Of a stretch of DNA of 52,304 nucleotides, positions 9,789-24,567 are shown piece by piece. The notes below the pieces were generated by a model, which was not told where the DNA came from, searched no databases, and saw nothing but the letters and a program-made list of their open reading frames with translations. The stretch lies in assembly GCA_022826005.1 (NCBI GenBank), contig JAJDVT010000024.1, positions 1 to 52,304 on the forward strand, read 5' to 3'. The stretch is from Gemmatimonadota bacterium. Lineage in GTDB: Bacteria > Gemmatimonadota > Gemmatimonadetes > Longimicrobiales > Gaopeijiaceae. Each line of letters opens with the position of its first letter. Position 1 is the stretch's first letter. The position numbers and the translations under genes are program-made.

Positions 9789-11168
9789 CTACCCGCCTTC
9801 CCGGGTCAGCCGCAGTATCTGCGGATGCTCGACATCCATCTCGTCTGACCGGACCCCGAGGATTTCGTCGCTTCCGATGTTCAGGATTCTGAACCCCGGG
9901 GCCAGTTCAACATCTCCGAGCCACTCGCCGCTGGCGGCGAACACCAGCCAGGCTTCGGGACGGCGGGTGGCATCGGGGCGGCCTGTTTCATCCGAGCGGA
10001 CGCTCTCGTCCGGGAAACCGATGCCACTTCGGAGGGCGCTGGCATCCGGGAGGGCGCTGGAACCGGGCTCACCACTCTCGCCGATGCCTTCCCTCTCGCT
10101 CTCGGCGACGAAGTGCCGCAGCCACACGGCCCCTGTAGGGTCCACGATCATCCGGTCATAGGCCGGGCGGGTTGTGGGTGACGGCATGTCTTCGATGGCC
10201 TGGCGCAGCGGCGGCGGGAGGGTCATGCCCAGGGGCAGGGGGACGTTGAGGCGGGCCTCCCTTTCGGCCTCGACCTGGGCTTCGGTGAGGTCCAGCGGGT
10301 AGCCGGGGATCCTAAGAATCCGGATGGTGTCGCCGACGGCGGACAGCACTTCGACCTGCATGAAGTCGGCGCTGCCGGTGAAGAGGTGGCCGCCGTGCGT
10401 GTCGACCACCGATCGCTTCGGGAAGAGAGGCCTGCCGCTGAGGGCTTCGGCGACGTACTCCTCGGCGCCGGCGATCTGGCCGATGCTGTCGCCGAGCGTG
10501 CCCTGCAGGTCGTAGAGAAGCAGCGCCTCCGGGTCGCGGATCTGGCCATGGGTCTCCGACCAGGTGAGCAGGGTGGGGACTACCAGGGTGCCGCCGCCCA
10601 GGAAGTGCACCGCGTGGCTGAAGTGGCGCATGCGCAGCACCCGGACGAGCCGCGGACCGGGAGCGAAGAGCGCGACGGTCTCGTCGAAGTCGAGTGCGAG
10701 GACCGTGTCGCCGGCCATTTCAATCTGCTGGAGGTTGTCGAATTCGCCGGGGCCCTCGCCGTGCCCGCCAACTTCGCCGATGAGGCGCCCGCCGGGCGAG
10801 AACCAGCGGATCTCCTGCGAGCCCCTGTTGGCGACGACGATCGTGCCGTCGGAGAGCCGTGCCATCCCGTCGACACCGTGGAAGAGGTGTTCGGGGACGT
10901 CGCCGGACCGGGCGAGGTCGAGGAGCGGTTCCGGGTGGATCCGCCAGCGCGCCGAATCGCCCCAGGCCGGGCGGAATGACTCCACGATCGCGATGCCTGC
11001 GCTGTCGCGCCGGATGGTGGGGGGTGAGGGGTGGTCGGGGGCGGTGCAGGCGGGGAGGAGGGGGAGGAGTGCGAGGGAGACGGCCGCCGCCAGTCCCGGC
11101 TTCACGATTACGTTGCCAGGGCCGGCGTTCGGTCCAGCATTGCCGGGGCGCGGAAACGCGATCTTCAC
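9789..11168 (-). CDS. Six-bladed beta-propeller lipoprotein, last gene of the paralogue chain
   Basis: The product is 459 residues. A GTG start at 11166-11168 overlaps the stop of the preceding gene as GTGA, implying coupled translation. The signal peptide ends in a lipobox (LLPLLPAC, Cys near residue 41). Blades follow, with the family motif GGHGEGPGEF, as in the propeller at 970-2253. Near the C-terminus, about 40 residues of low complexity (around 10015-10110; peptides SGEPGSSALPDASALRSG and DETGRPDATRRPEA) look like an in-frame expansion between blades. It is probably anchored to the periplasmic face of a membrane. Position in the chain suggests it works with the cysteine-rich paralogues, but their function is unknown. 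Confidence 0.87.
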   Translation of the reverse strand: MKIAFPRPGNAGPNAGPGNVIVKPGLAAAVSLALLPLLPACTAPDHPSPPTIRRDSAGIAIVESFRPAWGDSARWRIHPEPLLDLARSGDVPEHLFHGVDGMARLSDGTIVVANRGSQEIRWFSPGGRLIGEVGGHGEGPGEFDNLQQIEMAGDTVLALDFDETVALFAPGPRLVRVLRMRHFSHAVHFLGGGTLVVPTLLTWSETHGQIRDPEALLLYDLQGTLGDSIGQIAGAEEYVAEALSGRPLFPKRSVVDTHGGHLFTGSADFMQVEVLSAVGDTIRILRIPGYPLDLTEAQVEAEREARLNVPLPLGMTLPPPLRQAIEDMPSPTTRPAYDRMIVDPTGAVWLRHFVAESEREGIGESGEPGSSALPDASALRSGIGFPDESVRSDETGRPDATRRPEAWLVFAASGEWLGDVELAPGFRILNIGSDEILGVRSDEMDVEHPQILRLTREGG

Positions 11169-12874
11169 CGCCCCCCGACCGCAAAGCGGCGGACCGTGTT
11201 CGCCACGGCGCCGCCCGGGCCGCTCACTTCGATCTTCAGGTCGTAGTTCCCGTCCTCGAGCGCCTCGACATCCAGGGACAGGGCCATCGGGTGGGTGGGC
11301 CCCGACGCCGGCTCGGTCCACGCGACCCTCGGGGCACGCGTGTCCGAGCGGCCGCCGAGAGACCGGAGGACGCGGGTCAGCATTCCCTCCCCCTCGCGTT
11401 CAAGAGCCAGCGAGACCCGCATTGTCTGCCCTTCCTCCAGCCCGTAGACCTCGAAGTACGCGATCATTTCGTTCGTGGAGCCTATCCGTGTCTGCGGGAG
11501 CATCGCGTCCACCGCCTCCTGGCGGCTCTCCGGCAGCTCGCGGAGCAGGGGATCGACCAGGAGCGGGTCGGACAGCACCAGGCCTCCCGGCGCCAGTGGC
11601 GTCACCCCCTGCCGCATGCGGGCAACGGCGCGGCGGCGGCCGTATGCCTCGATCGCAACCAGAAGGGGCACGCTCGGGACCCCGGCGGCGAAGGACGGGC
11701 TCAGATCCGCGGTGGGCACTCCGAGGTTGGCGAAAAACCCGTTGGGGCCTCCGCTGGCGACAAACCGGGTCGCGGGCGAACCGAAGGGAACCGCGTCCAG
11801 ATCGGCGGAGACCGCCAGCACCAGCGAATCCCCGTCCAGGAGCCGCGCGACCTGGCCGGGCACCTCGAAAACGGTACCGTATTGGGTGGGCGTGAACCCC
11901 TCGTCCCACCTGGATGCTTCAAGTTCGTAGCGGAGGGCCTCGATTCCGTCTCCCACCAGGGATGCGGGAGTAAAGCGGTAGCGCGCCCCTCCTTCGCTCT
12001 TCCAGGTCTCAAGCTCTCTTCCGCGCGGCCTCCAGGAATCCGGGTGCCCCCTGCGGGTCACGTCGATGTGGTATTGGGGCGGGACGCGGCGGTTGTAGAC
12101 CGTCCGCCACAGGCGCTCGTGCAGCAGGAGTTCGAACCTCCGGGTCAGATGCTCGGTCCGGCGATCGTTCCCGGGCCTCGAGAGCAGGGGGTCCGACAGC
12201 CACCAGAACCGCTCCTCGTATGCCGTCCGCTCCGGGCCGGGACAGGGCAGCCGCCGGTAGGAAGCCGCGTCGCTCCCGTCCAGGAGTTCCCGGATGTCGG
12301 TCAGCCGGCAGGCCAGCTCGGGGTCCGCGCCCTCCAGCGCCGAACGGTAGCGGACGCCGGCCGCGGCCGAGCGCCCCGCCCGGTGGAGCGCAAGACCCAT
12401 CACGAGGTCGCACCACCAGGCAGCCGCCCGGCACCGGCGCGCCTGGTCGACCGCGTGCAGTGTGCGTCCGACTCGCGCGAGCCCGTAGACCGCGTGGGCG
12501 ATCACATGCGGATCGTCCGGCCGGTCGTCCACCGCCCCGATCAGCTCCATCACGAACTGAAGCCGGACCGCGGGAGTGCGGCAGTCGAAGACGCGCAGGC
12601 AGTACCAGTCCTCGTGGTCGCCGCCGAAACAGTTGTCGCCCCTGGCGGCCAGGCAGTCGCTGCTGCGGGTGTCGGAACTCAGGCCGCGGTGGTAGTGGTT
12701 CCGCAGGACGTTGCGGATGTTGCCCCGCAACTCCTCCTGCCACGCGACTTCCTGGGCACCGGCTGGCCTGGTCGGGATCGGCGCCATGAATGGCGGCGTG
12801 GTTGTCGTGGGGACGAAGAACTGCGGCGCGGTTGCGGCGAGCGCAAGAAACAATTGCCTTCGTACCCGTGTCAT
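11165..12874 (-). CDS. Cysteine-rich TPR-like/GWxTD-like secreted protein, paralogue A
   Basis: The product is 569 residues and the most divergent full-length member of the tandem family. It has a signal peptide ending near RPAGAQ, then the cysteine motif RGDNCFGGDHEDWYC. A helical repeat region follows (AHAVYGLARV, WWCDLVMGLALHRAG), then ERFWWLSDPLLSRPGND and RRFELLLHERL, like the FW-xxRDP and NE-helix signature of GWxTD proteins. A linker with TRRGHPDSW leads to a beta-rich C-terminal half containing VPGQVARLLDGDSLVLAVSA and ending YDLKIEVSG. It starts ATGA-coupled to paralogue B and ends GTGA-coupled to the propeller. No catalytic motif is evident, so a structural or binding role is likeliest. 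Confidence 0.85.
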   Translation of the reverse strand: MTRVRRQLFLALAATAPQFFVPTTTTPPFMAPIPTRPAGAQEVAWQEELRGNIRNVLRNHYHRGLSSDTRSSDCLAARGDNCFGGDHEDWYCLRVFDCRTPAVRLQFVMELIGAVDDRPDDPHVIAHAVYGLARVGRTLHAVDQARRCRAAAWWCDLVMGLALHRAGRSAAAGVRYRSALEGADPELACRLTDIRELLDGSDAASYRRLPCPGPERTAYEERFWWLSDPLLSRPGNDRRTEHLTRRFELLLHERLWRTVYNRRVPPQYHIDVTRRGHPDSWRPRGRELETWKSEGGARYRFTPASLVGDGIEALRYELEASRWDEGFTPTQYGTVFEVPGQVARLLDGDSLVLAVSADLDAVPFGSPATRFVASGGPNGFFANLGVPTADLSPSFAAGVPSVPLLVAIEAYGRRRAVARMRQGVTPLAPGGLVLSDPLLVDPLLRELPESRQEAVDAMLPQTRIGSTNEMIAYFEVYGLEEGQTMRVSLALEREGEGMLTRVLRSLGGRSDTRAPRVAWTEPASGPTHPMALSLDVEALEDGNYDLKIEVSGPGGAVANTVRRFAVGGR

Positions 12875-14601
12875 CGGCGTCCCACCTTGAAGCGGCGCGT
12901 GGCCGTGGCCACCGAGCCGTCCGGCCCCGTCACCTCGATATTGAGGTCGTAGTTTGCGTCACGCAGCGCCTTCACGTCCACCATCAGGGACATCGGGTGG
13001 ACCGGGCCGCCGGCCTCTTCCGTCCAGGAAACGGTTGGCACCGCAGGTCCCGACCGACCGCTCAGGAAGCGCAGAACGCGGGTCCCCATGCCGGCGCCCT
13101 CCCGTGCGACGCCGACCGAGATCTGCAACGGCTCCCCCTCTTCCAGCCCGTAGACCTCCCAGTAGGCGATGAGCTCGTTCATCGACCCAACCCATGGCTG
13201 TGGCAGCATCGAATCGATCGCCTCCTGGCGGGTTGTGGGCAGATCCCCGATCAGCGGACTTACCAGAAGCGGATCCGAGAGCATGAGCGCTCCCGGCTCC
13301 AGCGGCATCACCCCCTGCCGCATCCTGGCCACGGGGCCGTCCGGGTCCATTGCTTCGACCGCGACGACCATGGGCACGGCCTGGACCGTCGCGTTGAACG
13401 ACGGCCCCTGATCCATCCCTGTTGTCCCCAGACGCACGAAGGGGCCGGCCGGCCCCCCGCTGGCCACGAACCTGCTCTCCCGCGAGTAGACCGGAGAGGC
13501 GTCAAGGTCGGCGGAGACCGCCAGGACCAGCGAATCCCCGTCCAGGAACCGGGCGATCTGGCCGGGAACCTCGAAAACCGGGCCGTATGCGACAGGGGTG
13601 TAGCCCTCGTCCCACCGGGTCGCCGCAAGGTTGTAGCGCAGGGCCTGGATCCCGTCCCCGACAAGGGAAGCGGGGGAGAAGCGGTAGCGGGACGCCTGCT
13701 CGGATCTCCAGGTATCGACGATTCTCCCGGCCGGCTCCCATGAGTCGGGCGGTCCCCGGCGGGTCACCACGTTCATGTAGACGAGATTGTCCGCGATGCC
13801 GGCGGCGTTCAGCAGGTAGCCGGGGCGGGTCACCTCCCACAGGCGCTCGTGAAGCAGCAGCTCGAACCGCCTGGCTATGTGCTCGGTCCAGCGGTCGTTG
13901 CCGGGTATCGCCATCAGGGGATCGGTGAGCCACCAGAAGCGCTCTTCGAACTCCAGGCGCTGCGGGTCGTGGCAGGGGAGATCCGCATAGGTCGAGCCGT
14001 CCCGTCCGTCGAGGAGGTACTCGATGTCCCTAAGCCGGCACTCCAGTTCCGGGTCCGCGCCGAGCAATCCATTACGCACATGGCCTTCCGCTTCCACCGG
14101 TCGCCCGGCCCGGTGGTAGGCCATGCCGAGGACCAGGTCGCACCACCAGCGCGCCGCCTCGCACCCCCGGGCGACTTCGAGTGCGCGGCCGACCACCCCG
14201 ACTCTCGCCAGTCCGTAGACCGCCTGGGCCACCGTGTAGGGATCCGTGGGACGGCGCCGCGCGGCCCATTCCAGTTGGTCCATGAACTGGTACATAGCCG
14301 CTTCCGTGCGGCACGGCGAGATGTTAAGGCATCTATAGTCCTCGTGATCGCCTCCGAAACAGATGTCTCCCTTTCTGGCGAGGCAGTGGAGGCTGCGCTC
14401 GGTATTCAATGCGCGCCAATAGTGGTTCTGGACGACGAACCGGATCGGGTTCCGCATCGGGCCCTGCCACTCGACTTCCTGTGCGTCGGCGGGGGCGGTC
14501 GCGCCGGGGGCCAGGAAGGTCGTCGCGAGCGCGGCGGTGGCGAAGAACAGCAGCGCGGCCGGGCCGAGCGCAGGGACCGGAGTCCCCCGTCCCCGCCTCA
14601 T
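12871..14601 (-). CDS. Cysteine-rich TPR-like/GWxTD-like secreted protein, paralogue B
   Basis: The product is 576 residues. ATG 14599-14601 forms ATGA with the stop of paralogue C; the longer open frame upstream is the antisense-free tail of C and not part of this gene. The signal peptide ends near ADAQ. The motifs match the family: KGDICFGGDHEDYRC, WWCDLVLGMAYHRAG, ERFWWLTDPLM, RRFELLLHERL, VPGQIARFLDGDSL and a C-terminal YDLNIEVTG. B and C are nearly identical over long stretches, including at DNA level near their 3' ends (12890-12950 against 14612-14670), so they look like the most recent duplication. The product is predicted exported; no lipobox is seen. Confidence 0.87.
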   Translation of the reverse strand: MRRGRGTPVPALGPAALLFFATAALATTFLAPGATAPADAQEVEWQGPMRNPIRFVVQNHYWRALNTERSLHCLARKGDICFGGDHEDYRCLNISPCRTEAAMYQFMDQLEWAARRRPTDPYTVAQAVYGLARVGVVGRALEVARGCEAARWWCDLVLGMAYHRAGRPVEAEGHVRNGLLGADPELECRLRDIEYLLDGRDGSTYADLPCHDPQRLEFEERFWWLTDPLMAIPGNDRWTEHIARRFELLLHERLWEVTRPGYLLNAAGIADNLVYMNVVTRRGPPDSWEPAGRIVDTWRSEQASRYRFSPASLVGDGIQALRYNLAATRWDEGYTPVAYGPVFEVPGQIARFLDGDSLVLAVSADLDASPVYSRESRFVASGGPAGPFVRLGTTGMDQGPSFNATVQAVPMVVAVEAMDPDGPVARMRQGVMPLEPGALMLSDPLLVSPLIGDLPTTRQEAIDSMLPQPWVGSMNELIAYWEVYGLEEGEPLQISVGVAREGAGMGTRVLRFLSGRSGPAVPTVSWTEEAGGPVHPMSLMVDVKALRDANYDLNIEVTGPDGSVATATRRFKVGRR

Positions 14602-16277
14602 CGGCGTCCAACCTTGAAGCGACGCGTGGCCGTGGCCACCGAGCCGTCCGGGCCGGTCACCTCGATGCTGAAGTCGTAGTCCCCGTCGCGCAGTGCGTCC
14701 AAGTCCACCATCAGGGACATCGGGTGGACCGGCCCGCCCGCTTCTTCCGTCCAGGAGACGACCGGCGCCGGCGGTTCCGACCTCCCGCTCAGCGTGCGGA
14801 GAACGCGCGTGACCATCCCGGCGCCCTCCCGCGCCAGCGCGACCGAGATCTGCATCGGCTGCCCGTCCTGCAACCCGTAGACCTCCCAGTAGGCGACCAT
14901 TTCGTTTGCTGAGCCGATCCACGGCTGCGGAAGCATCGCGTCCACCGCCTCCTGCCGGGTCGTGGGCAGCTCGGGAATCAGGCGGTTCACGAGGAGGGGG
15001 TCGGAGAGCACCAAAGCTCCCGGCTCCAGCGGCATCACCCCCTCGCGCATCCGCCCCACGGGCCCCTCCGGGTCGAACGCTTCGATGGCGACCACCATCG
15101 GCACCGCTTCGACGGATGCCGTGACGGACGGGCCCGGATCCCGTGCCGGCAGTCCGAAGCCGACGAAGGGGCCGGTGGGCCCGCCACTGGCCACGAACCG
15201 GCTTTCACGGGAATAGATCGGGGCGGCGTCGAGGTCGGCGGAGACCGCAAGGACCAGTGAATCCCCGTCCAGGAAGCGGGCGATCTGGCCGGGAACCTCG
15301 AAGACCGGCCCGTACTCGACGGGGGTGTATCCTTCGTCCCACCGTGTCGCTTCCAGCTCGTAGTGGAGCGCCTGGATCCCGTCTCCCACGAGGGATGCGG
15401 GGGAAAAGCGGTAGCGGGACGCCTCCAGGCTCCTGAACCTTCCAATGTTGTCCTGCGAGTCGGGAGCCCCGCGGCGGGTCACCACGTTCATGTAGACGAG
15501 ATTGTGGCCGAGGCCACCGGCACTGAGCAGGTAGTTGGGCCGAATGACCTCCCAGAGGCGCTCGTGTAGCAACAGCTCGAACCGGCGGGTGACGTGTTCG
15601 GTCCAGCGGTCGTTGCCGGGCCTGGTGAGAAGGGGATCGGAGAGCCACCAGAAACGCTCTTCGAATTCACCGCGCTCACGGCTGGGGCAGGGCAGGACCG
15701 AATAGGTGGCTCCGTCCCTCCCGTCCAGGAGGTACTCGATGTCGGTCAGTCTGCAGGCGAGTTCCTGGTCGGCGCCGAGCAGCCCCATCTGCAGGTTACC
15801 CTCCGCGTCGACCGAGCGCTCCGCCCGCTGATAGGCCATGCCGAGGACCAAGTCGCACCACCAGCGCACCGCCTCACACCCTTGCGCGACTTCCAGCGCG
15901 CGGTCGGTGTACCGGAGCCTCGCCAGTCCGTAGACTGCCTGCGCGATCGTGTGCGGGTCGTCGGGCCGGCGCCTCGCGGCCCGCTCGAGTTCATCCATGA
16001 ACTGGAACATCGCCGCTTCCGTGCGGCACGGCGCGATGCTCATGCAGCGGTAGTCCTCGTGGTCACCTCCGAAACAGATGTCGCCCTTTCTCCCCAGGCA
16101 GTCGATACCCCCGGAACTGTTGATCAGGGCACGCCCGTAGTGGTTCTGCACGACGGCGCGGATCGGGTTCCGCATCTGTTCCTGCCACTCGACTTCCTGC
16201 CCGTCGGCGGGGGTGGCGGCGCCAGGGGCGAAAGGGACACCCGCGCCCAGCACCATCAACAGCGGGAGCCGCCTCAT
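14598..16277 (-). CDS. Cysteine-rich TPR-like/GWxTD-like secreted protein, paralogue C
   Basis: The product is 559 residues from ATG 16275-16277, which overlaps the stop of paralogue D as ATGA. A short signal peptide (MRRLPLLMVLGAGVPFAPG) is followed by the family layout: KGDICFGGDHEDYRC, helical repeats with WWCDLVLGMAYQRA, ERFWWLSDPLLTRPGND, VTRRGAPDS, VPGQIARFLDGDSL, then LSDPLLV and AYWEVYGLQ ending YDFSIEVTG. The cysteines of the N-terminal half are conserved with B and D, suggesting structural disulfides. It is very similar to B. The function is unknown. Confidence 0.87.
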   Translation of the reverse strand: MRRLPLLMVLGAGVPFAPGAATPADGQEVEWQEQMRNPIRAVVQNHYGRALINSSGGIDCLGRKGDICFGGDHEDYRCMSIAPCRTEAAMFQFMDELERAARRRPDDPHTIAQAVYGLARLRYTDRALEVAQGCEAVRWWCDLVLGMAYQRAERSVDAEGNLQMGLLGADQELACRLTDIEYLLDGRDGATYSVLPCPSRERGEFEERFWWLSDPLLTRPGNDRWTEHVTRRFELLLHERLWEVIRPNYLLSAGGLGHNLVYMNVVTRRGAPDSQDNIGRFRSLEASRYRFSPASLVGDGIQALHYELEATRWDEGYTPVEYGPVFEVPGQIARFLDGDSLVLAVSADLDAAPIYSRESRFVASGGPTGPFVGFGLPARDPGPSVTASVEAVPMVVAIEAFDPEGPVGRMREGVMPLEPGALVLSDPLLVNRLIPELPTTRQEAVDAMLPQPWIGSANEMVAYWEVYGLQDGQPMQISVALAREGAGMVTRVLRTLSGRSEPPAPVVSWTEEAGGPVHPMSLMVDLDALRDGDYDFSIEVTGPDGSVATATRRFKVGRR

Positions 16278-17971
16278 CGTTCGCCCACTCGAAAGGCGCG
16301 GGTTGTGCCGGCCGTGCTGCCATCCGGCCCCGCTACTTCGATCGTCAGCTCGTAGCTGCCCTCGTCCAGTGCCCCGATGTCCAGCGTGAGCGACATCGCA
16401 TGGGTTGATCCCGACGCCTCCTCGGTCCACATGACCACGGGGGCCGGCGCGTCCGAACGCCCGGCCAGCGTGCGGAGCACACGCGTGACCACGCCGGCGC
16501 CCTCCCGTGCCATCGCGACCGAGACCTGCATCGGTTGTCCTTCCTGGAGTCCGTATACCTCCCAGTAGGCGATCACCTGGTTCGCGGACGCGATCCACGG
16601 CTGTGGAAGCATCGAATCCACCGCCTCCTGGCGGGTGGCGGGCAGCTCGGTGACCCGGGGATCGACCAGCAGCGGATCGGAGAGCATGACCGGCCCCGCC
16701 TCCAGCGGCAGCACACCCTCGCGCAGCCGGGAAACGCCATCGTATCCATCGAAGGCCTCGATCGCGACGACCAGCGGCGCGGCCTCGAAGCTTGTCGTGA
16801 AGACGGGGGTCAGGTCGCCTCCCGGCAGCCCCAGTCCGGTGAAGTTGCCGGCCGGCCCGCTGCCGGCGACGAAGCGGATCTGCAACGGATTGATGGGCGC
16901 GGCCCTCAGATCGGCGGAGACCGCCAGGACCAGCGAATCCCCGTCCATGAAGCGGGCGACCTGCCCGGGAACGGCGTAGAAGGCGTCGTAATCGGTCGGC
17001 GTGTAGCCTTCATCCCAACGTTCGGCTTCGAGCTCGTAGCGCAGCGCCTGCACCCCGTCCCCGATCAGCGACGCGGGGGTGAAGCGGTATCGTGCCGCCT
17101 TGTCGCTCCTCCAGCGTCCGGTATGGTCGAAGGAGTCGGGGAATCCCCGCCGGGTGACCTCATCCACGTAGCGCAGGATGCTGTCAAGGGCTCCGGGCTC
17201 GAACCAGCGGCCGGGTTCGACCGCGTCCCGAAGCCGCTCGTGCAGCAGCAGCTCGAAACGCCGGGTCAGGTGCGCGCTCCAGCGATCGTTGCCCGGCGCC
17301 GTCAGCAGGGGATCGGACAGCCACCAGAAGCGATCCTCGAATTCCGTCCGGTCGGGGCCGGGGCAGGGCAGGCGCTCGTACGTTTCCTCGTCTCGCCCGT
17401 CCAGCAGGTAGGTGATGTCGGTCAGCCTGCATGCAAGCTCCGGGTCGGCCCCCGGCAATCCGATCCGGAAGTGGCCCTCCGCGTCGAGCGGCTGCTCCGC
17501 GCGGTGGTAGGCCATGCCGAGAACCAGGTCGCACCACCAGCCGGCCGCCTCGCACACCCGGGCGACCTCCAGCGCCCGGTCCGGATCACCGAGCCTCGCC
17601 AGGCCGTACACCGCCTGGGCGACAGCAAAGGGATCGCGTGGGCGGCGCCTTGCAGCCCGTTCCAGCTCGTCCATGAACTGGTACATCTGGGCGGGGTTGC
17701 GGCAGGGGACCGCGCGCAGGCAATCCTCGTCCTCGTAGTCGCCGCCGAAGCAGATGTCGCCCTTGTCCGCCAGGCAGTAGACGCTCACCGTGGTCTCGGT
17801 GCTGAAATCCCGGTTGTAGTGGAAGTCGAGGATGGCGCGGATCGGGTTACGCAGATCTCGCTTCCAGTCGACCTCCTGGGCGGTGCCGGCGGACGGACCG
17901 GGAGCGCACAGAACCAACGCGAATAGCGGTGCCGTGAAAAGGCCGCGTCGGACGTGCCCGGCAAGCCTCAT
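16274..17971 (-). CDS. Cysteine-rich TPR-like/GWxTD-like secreted protein, paralogue D
   Basis: The product is 565 residues from ATG 17969-17971, ATGA-coupled to the short gene E. The signal peptide runs to about residue 32. Cysteines are at C66, C74, C84 and C90 in a CLADKGDICFGGDYEDEDC region, followed by helical repeats 110-190 (C141, C147, C181). FWWLSDPL at 215-222 and RRFELLLHERL near 237-247 resemble the GWxTD signature. TRRGFPDS lies near 273-280 and VPGQVARFMDGDSL at 334-347, with a beta module to the end. The C-terminal module aligns with the whole of gene E. No enzyme motif is found. Confidence 0.87.
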   Translation of the reverse strand: MRLAGHVRRGLFTAPLFALVLCAPGPSAGTAQEVDWKRDLRNPIRAILDFHYNRDFSTETTVSVYCLADKGDICFGGDYEDEDCLRAVPCRNPAQMYQFMDELERAARRRPRDPFAVAQAVYGLARLGDPDRALEVARVCEAAGWWCDLVLGMAYHRAEQPLDAEGHFRIGLPGADPELACRLTDITYLLDGRDEETYERLPCPGPDRTEFEDRFWWLSDPLLTAPGNDRWSAHLTRRFELLLHERLRDAVEPGRWFEPGALDSILRYVDEVTRRGFPDSFDHTGRWRSDKAARYRFTPASLIGDGVQALRYELEAERWDEGYTPTDYDAFYAVPGQVARFMDGDSLVLAVSADLRAAPINPLQIRFVAGSGPAGNFTGLGLPGGDLTPVFTTSFEAAPLVVAIEAFDGYDGVSRLREGVLPLEAGPVMLSDPLLVDPRVTELPATRQEAVDSMLPQPWIASANQVIAYWEVYGLQEGQPMQVSVAMAREGAGVVTRVLRTLAGRSDAPAPVVMWTEEASGSTHAMSLTLDIGALDEGSYELTIEVAGPDGSTAGTTRAFRVGER

Positions 17972-18783
17972 CGCCGTCTCACGCTGAAACGACGGACGGC
18001 CGCAGCCACCGACCCATCCGGCCCCGCCACCGCGATCTTCAGGTCGTAGTTCCCGTCCGTCAGTTCGGCTACGCCCAGGGCGAGGGCCATCCCGTGTACC
18101 GGTCCCGACGCCGTTTCCGTCCAGGATACAACCGGCGCCGAGGGGACCTGCCTGCCCCTCAGCGAGCGAACCATGCGTGTGAGCACACCCGCCTTCTCCC
18201 GTTCCAGCGCGACCGAGATCTCCATCGTCGCCCCGGCCTCCAGTCCGTAGACCTCCCAGTATGCGGCCATCTCGCTCTCGGACCCGATCCGGAGCCGCGG
18301 CAGCATTCCATCCAGTGCTTCCTGCCGGGTTTCCGGCAGCGCCGCGATCCCGGGATCGAGGAGAAGCGGGTCGGAGACGACCAGATCGTCGCTCGCAAGC
18401 GGCGTCACTTTCTGCCCAAAGATCCGGGTACCGTCACCGCGCTCGTTTCTGTCTACATGGATGGCCACGAACTCCGGCGCCGCCGCGAACCTTTCCGAGA
18501 CTACTGGCCGCGGCTCCCGATAATGGAAAAAGCGGGCAAAGACCGTACCGCTACCGCTCCTCCCGAGGAACGCCAACAAACTGGCTTCCACGACGACAAA
18601 GGGAGCCTTGTCGAGATCCACCGCGACCGCGAGCAACAGCGAATCCCCATCCAGGAAGCGCGCAACCTGCCCGGGCACGGGCCGGTATTGGGCGTCCAGA
18701 GGTGCGCCGGGCGATGGCAGGGCGCCGAGGGCAACCCCGAGCAGAGGCGCCAGCAGCGCCGGGGCGACAGGACGACTGGTCAT
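17968..18783 (-). CDS. Short paralogue E: C-terminal module of the family with its own signal peptide
   Basis: The product is 271 residues. After a signal peptide (ALLAPLLGVALGALPSPGAPLDAQ) it goes directly to PVPGQVARFLDGDSLLLAV, a motif found near residue 334 of paralogue D. It continues through VVSDPLLLDPG, AAYWEVYGLEAG and YDLKIAVAG to the same C-terminus. The cysteine-rich, TPR-like and GWxTD-like parts are absent, and the mature part has no cysteine. The open frame is intact and codon use is normal, so this is a separate single-module gene, not a pseudogene. It is the first gene of the chain and probably sits at the 5' end of the mRNA. Its stop overlaps the start of D. Confidence 0.83.
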   Translation of the reverse strand: MTSRPVAPALLAPLLGVALGALPSPGAPLDAQYRPVPGQVARFLDGDSLLLAVAVDLDKAPFVVVEASLLAFLGRSGSGTVFARFFHYREPRPVVSERFAAAPEFVAIHVDRNERGDGTRIFGQKVTPLASDDLVVSDPLLLDPGIAALPETRQEALDGMLPRLRIGSESEMAAYWEVYGLEAGATMEISVALEREKAGVLTRMVRSLRGRQVPSAPVVSWTETASGPVHGMALALGVAELTDGNYDLKIAVAGPDGSVAAAVRRFSVRRR

Positions 18784-18789
18784 GGGTCA

Positions 18790-18819
18790 AGTCTAGAGAA
18801 CCCGCGCGAAGTGGTGCAA
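18790..18819 (-). promoter_or_regulatory. Putative promoter giving a leaderless mRNA for the paralogue chain
   Basis: On the minus strand TTGCAC (18819-18814) and TAGACT (18795-18790) are 18 bases apart. The -10 ends six bases before the ATG of gene E (18783), so transcription would begin at or next to the start codon. No ribosome binding site fits in the remaining space. A TANNNT box just ahead of the start codon is the known layout of leaderless genes in several phyla. Confidence 0.45.
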
Positions 18820-18894
18820 CCGGGCCGCGGCCGTGCCGGAAGCCCGCAAGACCGGCCTGCGCACGCTTTGCCGGCGGCATGACCCCCCTCGCGC

Positions 18895-19809
18895 CTACCG
18901 GATCCCCTCCAGCTGGATTCCGCGCACGAAATACCGCTGGGTGAAGAGGAAGAGGATCGCGATCGGCAGCACCGCCACGACGCCGGCTGCCATCTGGTAC
19001 GGCCAGTTGATCTCGTAGGTGGAGTGGAAGGCGGCGATTCCGACTTCGACGACCCGCATCTCCATCGAGCGGGTGACCAGAAGTGGCCAGAGGAAGTTCT
19101 TCCAGGCGTCGATGAAGGCGAACAGCGCGAGGGTGGCCACGGCGGGCTTCGCCAGCGGCAGGCCGACGCTCCAGAAGATTCGCCAGGGGCCCGCGCCATC
19201 CACCCGCGCGGCGTCCTCCAACTCGCGGGGAAGCGTGCGGAAGTACTGCCGCATGAGGAAGATGCCCCACACGGAGACGAGTTCGGTGGAGATGAGCCCC
19301 TGGTAGCTGTCGATCCAGCCCAGCGCGTCGATCATCAGGAAGCGGGGGATGAGGACGATGACGGCCGGCACCATCATGGTGGCCAGGAACAGCATGAAGA
19401 CGCGGTCCCGGCCGGGGAAGTCGAAGCGGGCGAAGGCGTAGCCGGCGGTGGTGGCGGTCGCGACCTGGCCGGCGACCACCGCGGCCGCGAAGATCAGCGA
19501 GTTGACGAAATAGCGCGCGAACGGCTGGGCGGTGAGGGCGTCCGGGTAGTTCGACCAGAGCGGTGTCTGCGGGAGCAGGCGGCCGGAGGAGAAGACCTCG
19601 AGCTGGCTCATCAGGCTGGTGGCGGCCATCCAGAGGAAGGGCGCGGCCATGGCCAGACAGGCCGCGGCAAGGAGGAGGACGCGGCCGTTGGCGGCCAGGC
19701 GGCTGGCGGCGCGCGAGCCGGGGCCCCGGGGTGGTCCAGCGGTCGAACGGCCCCAATCCCCCACGGCTGGAGCCGACCGCCTGGTCGCGCCCTTCCCGGA
19801 ATCACGCAT
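18895..19809 (-). CDS. ABC sugar transporter permease, MalG type
   Basis: The product is 304 residues with six predicted membrane helices; the first is around 44-60. The EAA loop that contacts the ATPase reads EDAARVDGAGPWRIFWSVGLP near residue 205, and GIQLEGIR is a typical MalG-type C-terminus. It starts eight bases inside the end of the MalF-type gene, so the two are translationally coupled. It is the last gene of the carbohydrate operon. The basic, flexible N-terminal ~40 residues are longer than usual, so a later start is possible. Confidence 0.92.
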   Translation of the reverse strand: MRDSGKGATRRSAPAVGDWGRSTAGPPRGPGSRAASRLAANGRVLLLAAACLAMAAPFLWMAATSLMSQLEVFSSGRLLPQTPLWSNYPDALTAQPFARYFVNSLIFAAAVVAGQVATATTAGYAFARFDFPGRDRVFMLFLATMMVPAVIVLIPRFLMIDALGWIDSYQGLISTELVSVWGIFLMRQYFRTLPRELEDAARVDGAGPWRIFWSVGLPLAKPAVATLALFAFIDAWKNFLWPLLVTRSMEMRVVEVGIAAFHSTYEINWPYQMAAGVVAVLPIAILFLFTQRYFVRGIQLEGIR

Positions 19810-21778
19810 GCGCCCGCCTCCCCTCCAGGAAGCGGAAGTGGAGCCAGGTGGCGGCGAATACGACCGCGAAGAGGATCCAGCTCATCGCGGCGGCGTTTCC
19901 GAAGCGCAGAAACTCCCACGCTTCGCGGTAGATGTGGTAGACGGCCACATCGGTCGCGCCCAGCGGTCCGCCCTCGGTCATGACGTAGACGAGACCGAAA
20001 ACCTGGAAGGACCCGATCACCGAGGTGACCAGGACGAAGAAGAGGGTGTGGCGGAGGCCGGGCAGGGTGATGTGACGGAAGCGCTGCAGCGGTCCGGCGC
20101 CGTCCACCCGGGCCGCGTCGTACCAGTCGCGCGGGATCGCCGCCAGCCCCGCCTGGAAGACGACCATCTGGTAGCCGACGACCATCCACACGCTGATCGC
20201 CATCAGGCTGGCGAGCGCGGTGTCCGGCGAAGTCAGCCACGGCACGGAATCCAGCCCCACGCCTTCGAGCGCGCGGTTCACCAGGCCGTAGCCGTCGTTC
20301 AGCAGCCACTTCCAGACCACCGCGATGGCGACCACGCTGGTGATGCCCGGCAGGAACAGCGCGAGGCGGACCCAGCGCACGGCGCGTCTGGATCCGCGGG
20401 TGAGGAGCGCCAGGGCGAGCGCGAGCGCCATCGCGAACGGGACGTGCAGGGTGAAGACCACGGTGTTGCGGATCGCCGACCACCAGGAGCCGTCGGCGAG
20501 GAGGCCGCGGTAGTTGGCCAGCCCGGTGAAGGGGTGCGCGGGGTCGACGAGGTGCCACTCGTGCAGCGAGATCCAGAGCGAGAAGAGCAGGGGCCCGAAG
20601 GTGAAGAGGAGGAGGAGGGCCGTGGCCGGCGCGAGGAACCCCCAGGCGGCGAGGGTCCTGCGCAGCGCGCGGGGCCGGGTGGAGAGGGGAAGGAGGAAGA
20701 GGACGAGGGAGACGAGCAGCGCCGAGCCGAGCGCGGAGGCGGCGAGGGGGATGGTGGGGGAGGCGGTTTCCTCGTAGCCGAGGAAGACGAGGTGGAGGGT
20801 GTCGGGGGTGGGGGGCGGGGGGGGAGGGGCGACTGCGGTGTCGGGGCGAGCCGCGTCCGCCGTGACGGCCCGAGGTGCGAGCCGCGTGCTGCCGCCGTGG
20901 TAGGTGGCGCCGCCCGCCGCGATGGTGTAGGCGGGGGCGGAGCGGAGGCCGGGGGTGGCCGCTATGGCTGCGCCGACCTCGCGGGGCATCGTCCAGAGCT
21001 GTTCGGGGGTGTCGAGCGCGGTGGTTGTGGCCCAGGGAAGGCCGGTGACGCGGGCGGCGCGGTCTGGATCGGCGCCGGCCGCCAGCGCGATCTCGGCCGC
21101 GCGGAGGCCGCGGGCGAGGTGGGCGCCGCTGAGGTCTTCCAGTTCGTGGTGGGCCCACTGCCGGGCGGTGGCTGCTACCAGTGAGAGGAGGGCGGCCGAG
21201 AGGAGGGCGACGGTGGCCGGGTAGCGGGCGGGCGGGGGGGAGGGGCGCCGCGCGAGGGCCCAGGCGGAGATGAGCAGCAGACCCAGCAGGGCGAGGATGG
21301 TGGGGGTCCACGGCCAGCCCCGGCCCCGGTTGTCGGGTGTGACCGAGATCCAGGCCGATGGTTCAAGCGAGCCGGCTTCGTAGGCGTACGCGCCCGGACC
21401 CGACTCGCTCGCCGGGGAAATCCGACCTTCGGGCGCCGCCGGGTCCCCCCGCACGGCCAGGATCTCCACGCGCCCATCAAGGAGACGCGCAACATCCGCG
21501 TCCGAAACCTCTTGTACCTCATACAGCGAAGCCGCCACGCGCGCATCGTTTTCCGTTGCGCGCTCCCCCGCCCCCCCCACCGCCCCCACGGCCACCATCA
21601 TGATCAGCCCGGCTCCGCCGGCAAATGCGGCGGCGGCCCACCCCCTCACGCCCGGCGCCCCCCTCACGCGGCCCGCCCCCTCACGGCCCGCCCCCCTCAC
21701 GGCCCGCCCTCCCACCCCGCCCGGCCCTCCTCGCGCGGCCCGGCGCCTCCGGCCCCCGCCACCCCCTTCGCCCCTCAC
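19802..21778 (-). CDS. ABC sugar transporter permease, MalF type, with a large extra N-terminal region
   Basis: The product is 658 residues, roughly twice a plain MalF-type permease. The canonical permease begins near residue 370 (RRTLAAWGFLAPATALLLLF) and has its EAA loop at DAARVDGAGPLQRFRHITLP. Before it lies an unusual section: a helix near 46-68, an extracytoplasmic segment to about 155 (LYEVQEVSDADVARLLDG), two helices (156-210), a second soluble segment with a proline run, and another helix near 340-365. The permease part should transport a sugar with the neighbouring components. The N-terminal part could sense the substrate or the membrane, which is inference. The start overlaps the solute-binding gene by ATGA. 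Confidence 0.88.
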   Translation of the reverse strand: MRGEGGGGGRRRRAARGGPGGVGGRAVRGAGREGAGRVRGAPGVRGWAAAAFAGGAGLIMMVAVGAVGGAGERATENDARVAASLYEVQEVSDADVARLLDGRVEILAVRGDPAAPEGRISPASESGPGAYAYEAGSLEPSAWISVTPDNRGRGWPWTPTILALLGLLLISAWALARRPSPPPARYPATVALLSAALLSLVAATARQWAHHELEDLSGAHLARGLRAAEIALAAGADPDRAARVTGLPWATTTALDTPEQLWTMPREVGAAIAATPGLRSAPAYTIAAGGATYHGGSTRLAPRAVTADAARPDTAVAPPPPPPTPDTLHLVFLGYEETASPTIPLAASALGSALLVSLVLFLLPLSTRPRALRRTLAAWGFLAPATALLLLFTFGPLLFSLWISLHEWHLVDPAHPFTGLANYRGLLADGSWWSAIRNTVVFTLHVPFAMALALALALLTRGSRRAVRWVRLALFLPGITSVVAIAVVWKWLLNDGYGLVNRALEGVGLDSVPWLTSPDTALASLMAISVWMVVGYQMVVFQAGLAAIPRDWYDAARVDGAGPLQRFRHITLPGLRHTLFFVLVTSVIGSFQVFGLVYVMTEGGPLGATDVAVYHIYREAWEFLRFGNAAAMSWILFAVVFAATWLHFRFLEGRRAHA

Positions 21779-23298
21779 CGCCGCAGCACCTCGTCAACGC
21801 GGCGCGCCACATCCCCCGCGCTCGCCTCCAGCGCCTCCCCGTTCAGCAGCCGCCGGTCCATGATCTCCACCGCCAGGGCCTCGACCAGGGAGAAGTCGCG
21901 CACGTAGGCGCCCCACGTTACGCGGGCCCCATCAACCAGCGCGATGAACGCATCCTCCACCCCCGTGGTGTCCGCGGCCGCGATCTCGGCCGCGACATCG
22001 GCGCGCGAAGGGATGGCCAGCCCGGACCCCGCCCGGATGCGCTGCGCTTCCGGCGACGCGAGAAAGCCGGCCAGGTCGATCGCCCGGCGCAGATTCGCGG
22101 CGTTGGGCGGAACGGCCCACCCCGACGCGTAGATCACGCTTGTCGCCCGCCCCTGCGACGGGTCATGCGGAATCGGCAGGATCTCCAGCTCCAGCGCACC
22201 CGACTGCACCAGATCGCGGAAGACGGGCAGCGTCCAGTGTCCCGAAAGGAGGAATGCCTGCCCGCCCGATGCGAACCGCGCCTCGCGCGCCGGGTCTCCC
22301 CGCTGCACGAACTGCGCGCCGGGTGTGAGACCCTCCTCGGCCAGCCCCGTCAGGAAGTCGTACGCCGCAAGTGCCTCGGGCCCATCCATGAAACCGCTGG
22401 CGCTCGCGCCGTCCGGCCCCAGAATGTCGCCCCCGGCGGACCACACGAACGGCACCCACTGGTAGAGGTTGCGCGGGAAGTCGAAGCCGAAGACATCCAG
22501 GCGGCCGTCGCCGTCGGTGTGCCGGGTCACCGCGCGGGCTGCGCGCCGGAAGTCGGCCCAGGTCCAGCCGTTTGGCCGGGCGGCCCCGAAGGCGGCCGGG
22601 TCAGCGCCGGCGTCCGCATTCCCGCCTGCACTCCCGTCCGCGTCCTGCACGCTCGCGCGCTCCGCGAGACGGCCCGCCTCCACTCCCGCACCGGCGCCCG
22701 GGTTCGCAAACCGTCCCGCGCCCGCATCCGCGAGCCGGCCCACCCCCGCGCCCTCCAGCACCCCCCGGTTCGCGTAGATGACCATTGGCGTGAAGTCCTT
22801 GGGCAGCGCGAAGATCGCCCCCCCGCGCGTGAAGCCTTCCAGCACCTGCGGGAAGACGCTGTCCGCGCGAAAGCCCAGCGCCTCCTGGTAGGGCGCGAAG
22901 TCCACCGCCAGCCCCCGGTCCACGAAGGTGGGGATGTCGGGCGAGTCCAGCAGGTAGACATCGGGGGGGTGGCCCGCCGCGATCGAGGTGAGGAGACGTT
23001 CCTCGTACCCGTTCGGGGCCGATTCGAGGACCACTCTTGTCCCGGGCCGCAGCGCCTCGTAGCGCGCCGCCACCTGCTGCTCGATCTGGAGTTCGTACCC
23101 GCCCGCCCACAGCGCAACGCGCAGGGTGGCGGTGCCGGGTGGGGCGGGGGAGCAGGCGGTGGCCAGCGAGCAGGCGATGGCCATGCCGTGAGCGGCCGCG
23201 ACCGAGATACGGCCCGGCAGCGCACCGGAGCGAGCGGAGGCGGTCCGGACGCCGGCCGGACCGATGCCGGCTTTCAGGCGGTCGCCGAGCCTCGTCAC
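21775..23298 (-). CDS. Extracellular solute-binding lipoprotein of a sugar ABC transporter
   Basis: The product is 507 residues of the family 1 (MalE/UgpB-like) solute-binding type. The N-terminus has a hydrophobic stretch ending CSLATAC, a lipobox near residue 49. ALWAGGYELQIEQQVAARYEA and FALPKDFTPMVIYANRGVLE are typical of the fold, as is the C-terminal ASPEAQRIRAGSGLAIPSR. About 45 residues of Gly/Ala-rich repeat (around 22600-22745; GVGRLADAGAGRFANPGAGA) are inserted where the canonical protein is continuous. The gene overlaps its neighbours on both sides by ATGA. It delivers a carbohydrate to the two permeases; the specificity is unknown. Confidence 0.9.
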   Translation of the reverse strand: MTRLGDRLKAGIGPAGVRTASARSGALPGRISVAAAHGMAIACSLATACSPAPPGTATLRVALWAGGYELQIEQQVAARYEALRPGTRVVLESAPNGYEERLLTSIAAGHPPDVYLLDSPDIPTFVDRGLAVDFAPYQEALGFRADSVFPQVLEGFTRGGAIFALPKDFTPMVIYANRGVLEGAGVGRLADAGAGRFANPGAGAGVEAGRLAERASVQDADGSAGGNADAGADPAAFGAARPNGWTWADFRRAARAVTRHTDGDGRLDVFGFDFPRNLYQWVPFVWSAGGDILGPDGASASGFMDGPEALAAYDFLTGLAEEGLTPGAQFVQRGDPAREARFASGGQAFLLSGHWTLPVFRDLVQSGALELEILPIPHDPSQGRATSVIYASGWAVPPNAANLRRAIDLAGFLASPEAQRIRAGSGLAIPSRADVAAEIAAADTTGVEDAFIALVDGARVTWGAYVRDFSLVEALAVEIMDRRLLNGEALEASAGDVARRVDEVLRR

Positions 23299-24494
23299 GA
23301 TACCGCCCCGCCCGGCCCGGGCGCCGCCCCCACCCGGCTGCCATCCGGTCCAAAGAGGTGCGTCCTCTCCCAGGCGACCGACACGCCCACCCGGTCTCCT
23401 GCGGCGACCTGCAACGCCGGCGGCACGCGCGCCACCCAGCCCGCCTCGCCCGGCCCGTCCAGGTGTACGCGCTGCTCGCTCCCCAGCGCCTCCACGCGCA
23501 GCACGGTGGCCTCGAAGTCGCTCCGCCCGCGTGCGCGCGCCAAACGTCCCCGCCGCCCGGCGCCTCCGTCCCGCGTGCCCGCTGCACCGTCCCGCGCCCC
23601 CGCTGCAACGTCCCGCGTCCCATCCGCGCCCCCGGCTACACCCCCCAGCGCGAGGTCCTCCGGCCGCACGCCGAGCGTCGCCGCGCCGAACTCCCGGTCC
23701 TCCGCGAATTGGAACGGCCCGCCCGCGAGGCGTCCCTCGCGGTCGCGCGCAAGTTCCAGCCGGTTGATCGGGGGCGATCCCACGAAGCCCGCGACGAAGA
23801 GGTTGCCTGGCAGGCGGTAGATCTCGTCCGGTGTCCCGACCTGCTGGAGCCGGCCCCGGTCCATCACCGCGACGCGCTGGCCGAGCGAGAGCGCCTCGAC
23901 CTGGTCGTGCGTGACGAAGATCATGGTCGTGCCGAGGCGCTGGTGCAGCGCCGCGATCTCGTCGCGCGTCCGCAGCCGCAGTCCCGCGTCCAGGTTCGAC
24001 AGCGGCTCGTCGAAGAGGAAGACCCCGGGATCGCGTGCCATCGCCCGTCCCAGCGCCACCCGCTGCTGCTGGCCGCCCGAAAGCTGGCCAGGGCGGCGCG
24101 ACAACAGCTCCTCCAGCCCCAGCAAGTCCGCGGTACGCCCCACGCGCTCAGCGATCTCCTCCCGGCCCGCGCCCCGCACCCGTAGACCGAAGCCCAGGTT
24201 CTGCGCGACGGTCATGTGCGGGTAGAGGGCGTAGCTCTGGAAGACCATCGCCACGTCGCGGTCCCCCGGCGCGACCTCATCGACGCACCGCCCCCCGATC
24301 CACACCTCCCCCGCAGTCGGCTCCTCGAGCCCCGCGATCAGGCGCAGCATCGTGCTCTTCCCGCACCCGGACGGCCCCACCAGCACCATGAGCTCGCCCG
24401 CGCGGACCTCAAGGTCGACCGCGTCCACGGCGGTCACGTCCCCGAAGCGCTTCTCGACGCCCCGCAGGACGACGCCTTGCGCCGCGCGGCTCAC
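23295..24494 (-). CDS. Sugar ABC transporter ATP-binding protein (MalK/UgpC/MsmX type)
   Basis: The product is 399 residues from GTG 24492-24494, supported by GGGAGG nine bases upstream; a GTG at 24563 would add 23 doubtful residues. Walker A GPSGCGKS is at 40-47, the Q-loop at FQSYALYPHM, signature LSGGQ at 138-142, Walker B FLFDEP at 159-164 and the H-loop at FVTHDQ. A C-terminal TOBE-type region (LGVRPEDLAL, GDRVGVSVAWERTHLF) is interrupted by an Ala/Gly/Arg repeat of about 40 residues encoded near 23525-23640 (units GTRDVAAGARDGAAGTRDG). It powers the MalF/MalG-type pair downstream. ATGA overlap with the solute-binding gene. Confidence 0.93.
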   Translation of the reverse strand: MSRAAQGVVLRGVEKRFGDVTAVDAVDLEVRAGELMVLVGPSGCGKSTMLRLIAGLEEPTAGEVWIGGRCVDEVAPGDRDVAMVFQSYALYPHMTVAQNLGFGLRVRGAGREEIAERVGRTADLLGLEELLSRRPGQLSGGQQQRVALGRAMARDPGVFLFDEPLSNLDAGLRLRTRDEIAALHQRLGTTMIFVTHDQVEALSLGQRVAVMDRGRLQQVGTPDEIYRLPGNLFVAGFVGSPPINRLELARDREGRLAGGPFQFAEDREFGAATLGVRPEDLALGGVAGGADGTRDVAAGARDGAAGTRDGGAGRRGRLARARGRSDFEATVLRVEALGSEQRVHLDGPGEAGWVARVPPALQVAAGDRVGVSVAWERTHLFGPDGSRVGAAPGPGGAVS

Positions 24495-24567
24495 AAAGCC
24501 TGCCTCCCGGCGTCCCCACCGCACGAAGCGGGCCGCGCCAAAGCGGCGGAATCCGCCACCCACCCGC

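Follow-up and report, generated by a model that had tools for sequence, protein, structure and literature searches.

A conserved tandem array of predicted exported proteins of an undescribed, GWxTD-related family in Gemmatimonadota

The closest relatives of the proteins considered here are GWxTD proteins, a name of which no mention was found in the literature searched. Genuine GWxTD proteins, collected from other Gemmatimonadota with the Pfam model PF20094, are of two kinds: (i) canonical proteins of ~470 aa, with an intact motif and with the domain located C-terminally, behind beta domains (alignment A3), and (ii) long proteins of ~770 aa, in which TPRs are followed by a GWxTD-type half and then by beta domains (alignment A4; P0009 encoded at L073:495-2801, further representatives at L072 and L074-L076). 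The long proteins match PF20094 (cut-off 26.9 bits), the best score being 31.7 bits, and one of them exceeds the cut-off. Two further protein types have to be considered, i.e., TPR proteins (PF13428, PF07721 and others, with the periplasmic proteins NlpI and LpoP among the structural neighbours) and 6-bladed beta-propeller lipoproteins (DUF5128/PF17170-like). The term "6-bladed beta-propeller" in combination with Gemmatimonadota was not found in the literature searched.

The stretch of DNA analysed here (the window) is an entire contig of 52,304 nucleotides (C99) from a Gemmatimonadota genome of 4.85 Mb on 143 contigs. It harbours a chain of five family genes, which is preceded by a complete glycoside-type ABC operon (hydrolase, ATPase, solute-binding lipoprotein and two permeases) and followed by a gene for a propeller-type lipoprotein:

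24568..26838, minus strand: MGH1-like glycoside hydrolase, with which the ABC operon begins
23295..24563, minus strand: MalK-like ABC ATPase with TOBE domain, neighbour
21775..23184, minus strand: extracellular solute-binding lipoprotein (SBP_bac_1/8), neighbour
19802..21649, minus strand: MalF-like ABC transporter permease, neighbour
18895..19764, minus strand: MalG-like ABC transporter permease, upstream neighbour of the chain
18784..18821, minus strand: conserved promoter-like block GGTTGCACCA...CTCTAGACTTGACCC, ending at the chain ATG (five-species alignment)
17968..18783, minus strand: chain gene 1 (P0001, 271 aa), signal peptide and C-terminal beta half only
16274..17971, minus strand: chain gene 2 (P0002, 565 aa), position A, full length
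14598..16277, minus strand: chain gene 3 (P0003, 559 aa), position B1, full length
12871..14601, minus strand: chain gene 4 (P0004, 576 aa), position B2, full length
11165..12874, minus strand: chain gene 5 (P0005, 569 aa), position C, full length
9789..11105, minus strand: propeller-type lipoprotein (P0006), likely start at 11105, lipobox LPAC

The initial annotation had described five minus-strand paralogues in tandem. Their coordinates proved exact throughout, and mutual homology was confirmed by alignment, the paralogues sharing 52-76% identity with the copy at 14598-16277 (reference). The motifs ascribed to the full copies were likewise recovered, namely a signal peptide ending in AQ, FWWLSDPLL, RRFELLLHERL, a beta-rich C-terminus and, with variation, the cysteine-rich motif KGDICFGGDHED. 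Gene 1 had been taken for a single-module gene; its 271-aa product is not a bare module but consists of the signal peptide and the C-terminal half, and is devoid of the TPR and GWxTD-type parts. Its leader peptide (MTsRPV.PALLA.LL) is the same as that on the first chain gene of two relatives (G053 and G064). From the signal peptides follows predicted export of the chain proteins by the general pathway and thus a location outside the cytoplasm.

When the window proteins were scanned with Pfam and NCBIfam, no model identified the chain family at its cut-off, in agreement with the claim of an unnamed family. In a sample of the phylum, relatives (counted at E <= 1e-5) were found in 231 of 298 Gemmatimonadota genomes and in 92 of 119 genera; a single-protein scan of genome contigs gave matches in three Gemmatimonadetes MAGs. 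Further family members are encoded on contigs C80, C100 and C108 of the same genome as the window. An alignment of 26 diverse members (A2) revealed two cysteine pairs, C60/C68 being nearly invariant and C134/C141 invariant, as well as the conserved motifs FWWLADP....GNDR.TEH..R, R.G.P, SD and YWEVYG. The paired conserved cysteines likely form disulfides.

The copy on C100 (L008:1333-3048, plus strand) is a divergent full-length member located between ispE and prs, an order that was not seen among the sampled distant loci. On C108 (52892-53158; L007:1369-2331, minus strand), a propeller-like protein ends in a beta-domain fragment of the chain family, joined at ..AYWEVYG.., and looks like a fusion of the propeller and chain families. 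Tandem pairs of family genes also occur in other Gemmatimonadota families and in different gene contexts (L112:7438-10825 in G104 and L113:6481-9894 in G157), indicating that tandem duplication is a recurrent habit of the chain family.

The AlphaFold2 model of the 14598-16277 protein (pLDDT 86.9, pTM 0.86) places helices at residues 39-269 and beta domains at about 322-420 and 421-559; the helical half modelled separately reached a pLDDT of 86.1. As predicted from these single-protein models, which had been suggested as a check, the full copies would comprise TPR-like helices, a degenerate GWxTD helical half and two Ig-like beta domains. The TPR-like helices had already been proposed from the sequence, and besides the models they agree with weak TPR matches of several family members (best E 1.7e-4; P0004 vs TPR_4 E 4.9e-4, below the cut-off) and with the TPR-GWxTD profile match described below. 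The hairpins at residues ~85-180 of the window copies resemble TPR proteins but stay below the TPR cut-offs, and the fold search with the helical half yielded weak matches, nearly all of them TPR proteins, the best Z of 6.4 lying within the chance range for helical repeats. Residues 322-559 yielded Ig/Fn3-type matches. For the last beta domain, the top rows include the carbohydrate-binding domain of Wzt (Z 10.4, 2.8 A, 108 residues), a match that is not distinctive, since many unrelated Ig-like proteins score nearly as high. A sequence search against solved structures returned KIAA0319-like PKD domains as the sole match (E 2e-5); it covers the last ~57 profile columns and was rejected as an identification, being a short match to a generic Ig-like region. 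The Ig/Fn3 and TPR fold matches were likewise discarded as clues to function, since they are generic and support the fold class only.

The relationship to GWxTD proteins emerged from profile comparison. Alignment A2 matches the long proteins (A4) with a probability of 99.9 and E 4e-37 across 474 of 576 columns, i.e., from the TPRs to the C-terminus, and the helical half compared with A4 still gives E 1.6e-20. With the canonical GWxTD domain (A3), the helical half aligns in register over 102 columns (E 5e-5, probability 67). Window proteins and long proteins share the same domain order, with helical repeats, a GWxTD-type half and beta domains containing SD and YWEIYNL-type motifs. The long proteins differ in being ~200 aa longer, in having more TPR repeats and in keeping GWeTDRG..YIRYGxP, whereas in the window proteins the GWxTD motif is lost (MNVVTRRGAPDS) and conserved cysteine pairs are present that are absent from P0009. 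The GWxTDRG and Y/I-LGxPD motif can be followed in a series from GWeTDRGviYIRYGpP (A4) via W..DLRELLVRYGWP in distant family members to NLVYMNVVTRRGAPDS at this site in the window copies. Unlike the canonical proteins, neither the window proteins nor the 26 family members, nor any protein of the entire genome, matched PF20094 above 26.9 bits, and no PF20094 match or long GWxTD protein was detected in this genome or in four congeners sampled. Judged from these alignments, the window proteins are descendants of GWxTD proteins; since the motif is eroded and PF20094 unmatched despite homology, they are placed outside the definition of that family. The GWxTD resemblance noticed initially therefore holds as ancestry, but not as strict membership. 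Thus, the profile searches that had been proposed gave no direct Pfam or NCBIfam identity, yet they uncovered homology to GWxTD proteins, and since these are themselves uncharacterised, a confident match to a characterised family was obtained only in part.

The four junctions between chain genes are exact ATGA stop/start overlaps (at 17968, 16274, 14598 and 12871). Across nine genomes, NTGA starts are present at 14 of 15 family junctions (window 4; G053, G064 and G299 2 each; G017, G098, G153 and G240 1 each; G152 none), with an alternative in-frame start 42 nt further upstream being possible for the junctions in G017 and G098. The family junctions are of the translational-coupling type. Among 139 further pairs of same-strand neighbours in the loci examined, up to 38 can be read as NTGA overlaps, so that this overlap represents an ordinary operon junction in these genomes; moreover, the family overlaps were inherited with the tandem unit and are therefore to be regarded as a single ancestral arrangement that persisted in many lineages rather than as independent events. 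An overlap had been reported for every junction, including a GTGA at 11165 in front of the propeller gene. The latter is probably not the propeller start, since the start of the signal peptide with the lipobox (VKPGLAAAVSLALLPLLPAC) is at 11105, 60 nt further downstream, and since in G299 the corresponding chain gene terminates with a non-overlapping TAA, the corresponding GTG being the propeller start there. Hence the array, the paralogy and the four ATGA junctions stand as initially observed, and the propeller junction probably does not.

P0006 resembles the 6-bladed beta-propeller lipoproteins by weak propeller-type matches (Pfam and NCBIfam scans) and by its lipobox; these lipoproteins are unrelated to the chain proteins and an inconstant neighbour of them. 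The P0006 family is largely expanded in the genus (24-85 matches per genome). A low-complexity insertion (GESGEPGSSALPDASALRSGIGFPDESVRSDETGRPDATRRP) is present in the propeller protein (window ~9950-10090, minus strand). Among chains with a readable downstream side, a propeller gene directly follows only in the window and in G299; the chains of G064 and of the second species group (G017, G098, G153, G240) lack it at this place, and the contig of G053 ends too early. G152 has two full family copies on another contig, apart from the ABC operon and near propeller and hydrolase genes, its propeller gene being adjacent to that of the hydrolase and encoded on the opposite strand. P0006 is therefore best treated as a neighbour, not as a fixed chain member.

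The number of copies per chain varies among close relatives, with 4 full and 1 short (window), 3 and 3 (G053, G064), 2 and 1 fragment (G299), 2, 2, 2 and 2 (second species group), and 1 and 1. In G299, copy A is cut to a 133-aa frame (L106:11121-11522, minus strand), in which the GWxTD-type helices and the last strands are kept and which retains an ATGA overlap. A hetero-oligomeric extracytoplasmic assembly of fixed stoichiometry with the propeller lipoprotein as its membrane anchor, as envisaged in the initial annotation, appears highly improbable on these grounds: copy numbers of 1-5 do not support a fixed stoichiometry, the subunit set being inconstant, and anchoring by a lipoprotein from a family of this size, which is absent after most of the readable chains and in G152 is encoded on the opposite strand, is not supported either. 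The prevalence of NTGA starts at conserved family junctions and the propeller orthologue adjoining the chain in G299 would agree with such an assembly, but overlaps are common in these genomes and the GTGA junction is not conserved. As far as genome comparison can indicate, a fixed-ratio hetero-oligomer finds no support. The undescribed family, the conserved tandem and the GWxTD link are thus retained from the earlier interpretation, while fixed stoichiometry and the lipoprotein-held assembly are not.

In a maximum-likelihood tree, positions A (P0002 and the first full copies of G053 and G064), B (P0003, P0004, G053, G064) and C (P0005, G053, G064) each form a group with full support, and the two-gene chains of the second species group represent two further orthologous sets (D and E). 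Since positions are orthologous across species, they are old and their order has been kept. A recent, window-only duplication of gene 3 as the origin of gene 4 was dismissed, since gene 3 groups more closely with the G064 copy in the tree (98/95), so that the duplication probably dates further back and was followed by loss elsewhere. The B copy of G299 appears chimeric, its 5' part being nearer to B2 and its 3' part nearer to B1, which is suggestive of gene conversion. The chain is an undescribed, real and conserved array, while its mode of origin, tandem duplication, is ordinary.

A lineage-specific expansion for dosage or by drift, in which the copies share one task and diverge neutrally and in which gene 1 and the fragment in G299 arose by deletion, is a possibility that we regard as somewhat unlikely. 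The variation from 1 to 5 copies among congeners, the absence of a close full-length copy from 12 of 23 congeners and the copy A remnant of G299 are compatible with it, as are the internal shortening and relaxed constraint of gene 1 (dN/dS between orthologues 0.58). However, dN/dS of the full copies is 0.14-0.33 between orthologues, so that by this measure they are under purifying selection, and A, B and C as well as D and E each represent an orthologous lineage of their own, well supported and with the order fixed; distinct copies in such an order would be compatible with their not being exchangeable. Gene 1 is not fresh debris either, since an intact orthologue (79% identical, full-length relative to gene 1) is located downstream of malG in G152. 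Nevertheless, its weaker constraint means that not every chain member need be functional.

A malG orthologue was found in 19 of 23 genomes of the genus. In nine of the 19 congeners with the operon (window counted; further G053, G064, G299, G017, G098, G153, G240 and G152), family genes are located just downstream of malG on the same strand at 78-745 bp distance, as chains of 2-5 genes in eight genomes and as the lone gene-1 orthologue in G152. The tandem organisation is thus conserved in related genomes, as had been anticipated. This proximity, the MGH1-like glycoside hydrolase at the operon start and the resemblance of the last beta domain to that of Wzt could be taken to mean that the chain is an accessory to the neighbouring glycoside ABC uptake operon, e.g., for periplasmic substrate capture or delivery. 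We consider this quite improbable, since operon and chain occur without each other: ten congeners possess the operon without the chain (five neighbourhoods inspected, five more without P0001 match), a single family gene but no malG match was found in each of G198 and G234, and relatives elsewhere in the phylum, such as the G157 pair, reside in other contexts. Similar Z values are obtained for Ig-like folds with many unrelated proteins, and a conserved block of its own precedes the chain. This block (CCGGTTGCACCA...CTCTAGAC...CCATG) is conserved in five species, while most other intergenic sequence has diverged. It can be read as -35 TTGCAC, an 18-nt spacer and -10 TAGACT, a weak promoter resemblance; so read, it would give rise to a nearly leaderless transcript starting at the chain. 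Terminator and promoter pattern scans were uninformative, and since a simple sigma-70 pattern scan did not report the block, it represents a conserved candidate only.

Taken together, the chain is probably a genus-level tandem expansion of exported binding or scaffold proteins from a phylum-wide family derived from TPR-GWxTD-beta proteins. A promoter immediately ahead of gene 1 may drive transcription of the chain as a separate unit. The chain products would serve for extracytoplasmic binding or scaffolding without enzymatic activity, their helices and beta domains making contact with proteins or glycans, and the A, B and C paralogues may have come to differ in their partners or ligands. In-frame deletion and duplication among paralogues would account for the changes in copy number, so that the product would be a variable set rather than a fixed-ratio complex. 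Since no catalytic or ligand-binding residue was identified and no relative is characterised, "binding or scaffold" is deduced from the fold type only. One may further speculate, at low likelihood, that non-equivalent exported subunits (A, B, C and gene 1) form a new, variable and GWxTD-derived extracytoplasmic adaptor or scaffold, whose range of partners or ligands would be set by the paralogues of the respective species.

GWxTD proteins are widespread in Gemmatimonadota and unexplained, and the chain family adds to them a motif-less branch that extends across the phylum. In an exported family for which Pfam and NCBIfam hold no model, it illustrates that a domain can outlast the loss of its signature motif. 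The orthologous chain positions open the experimental question of whether the paralogues have split functions.
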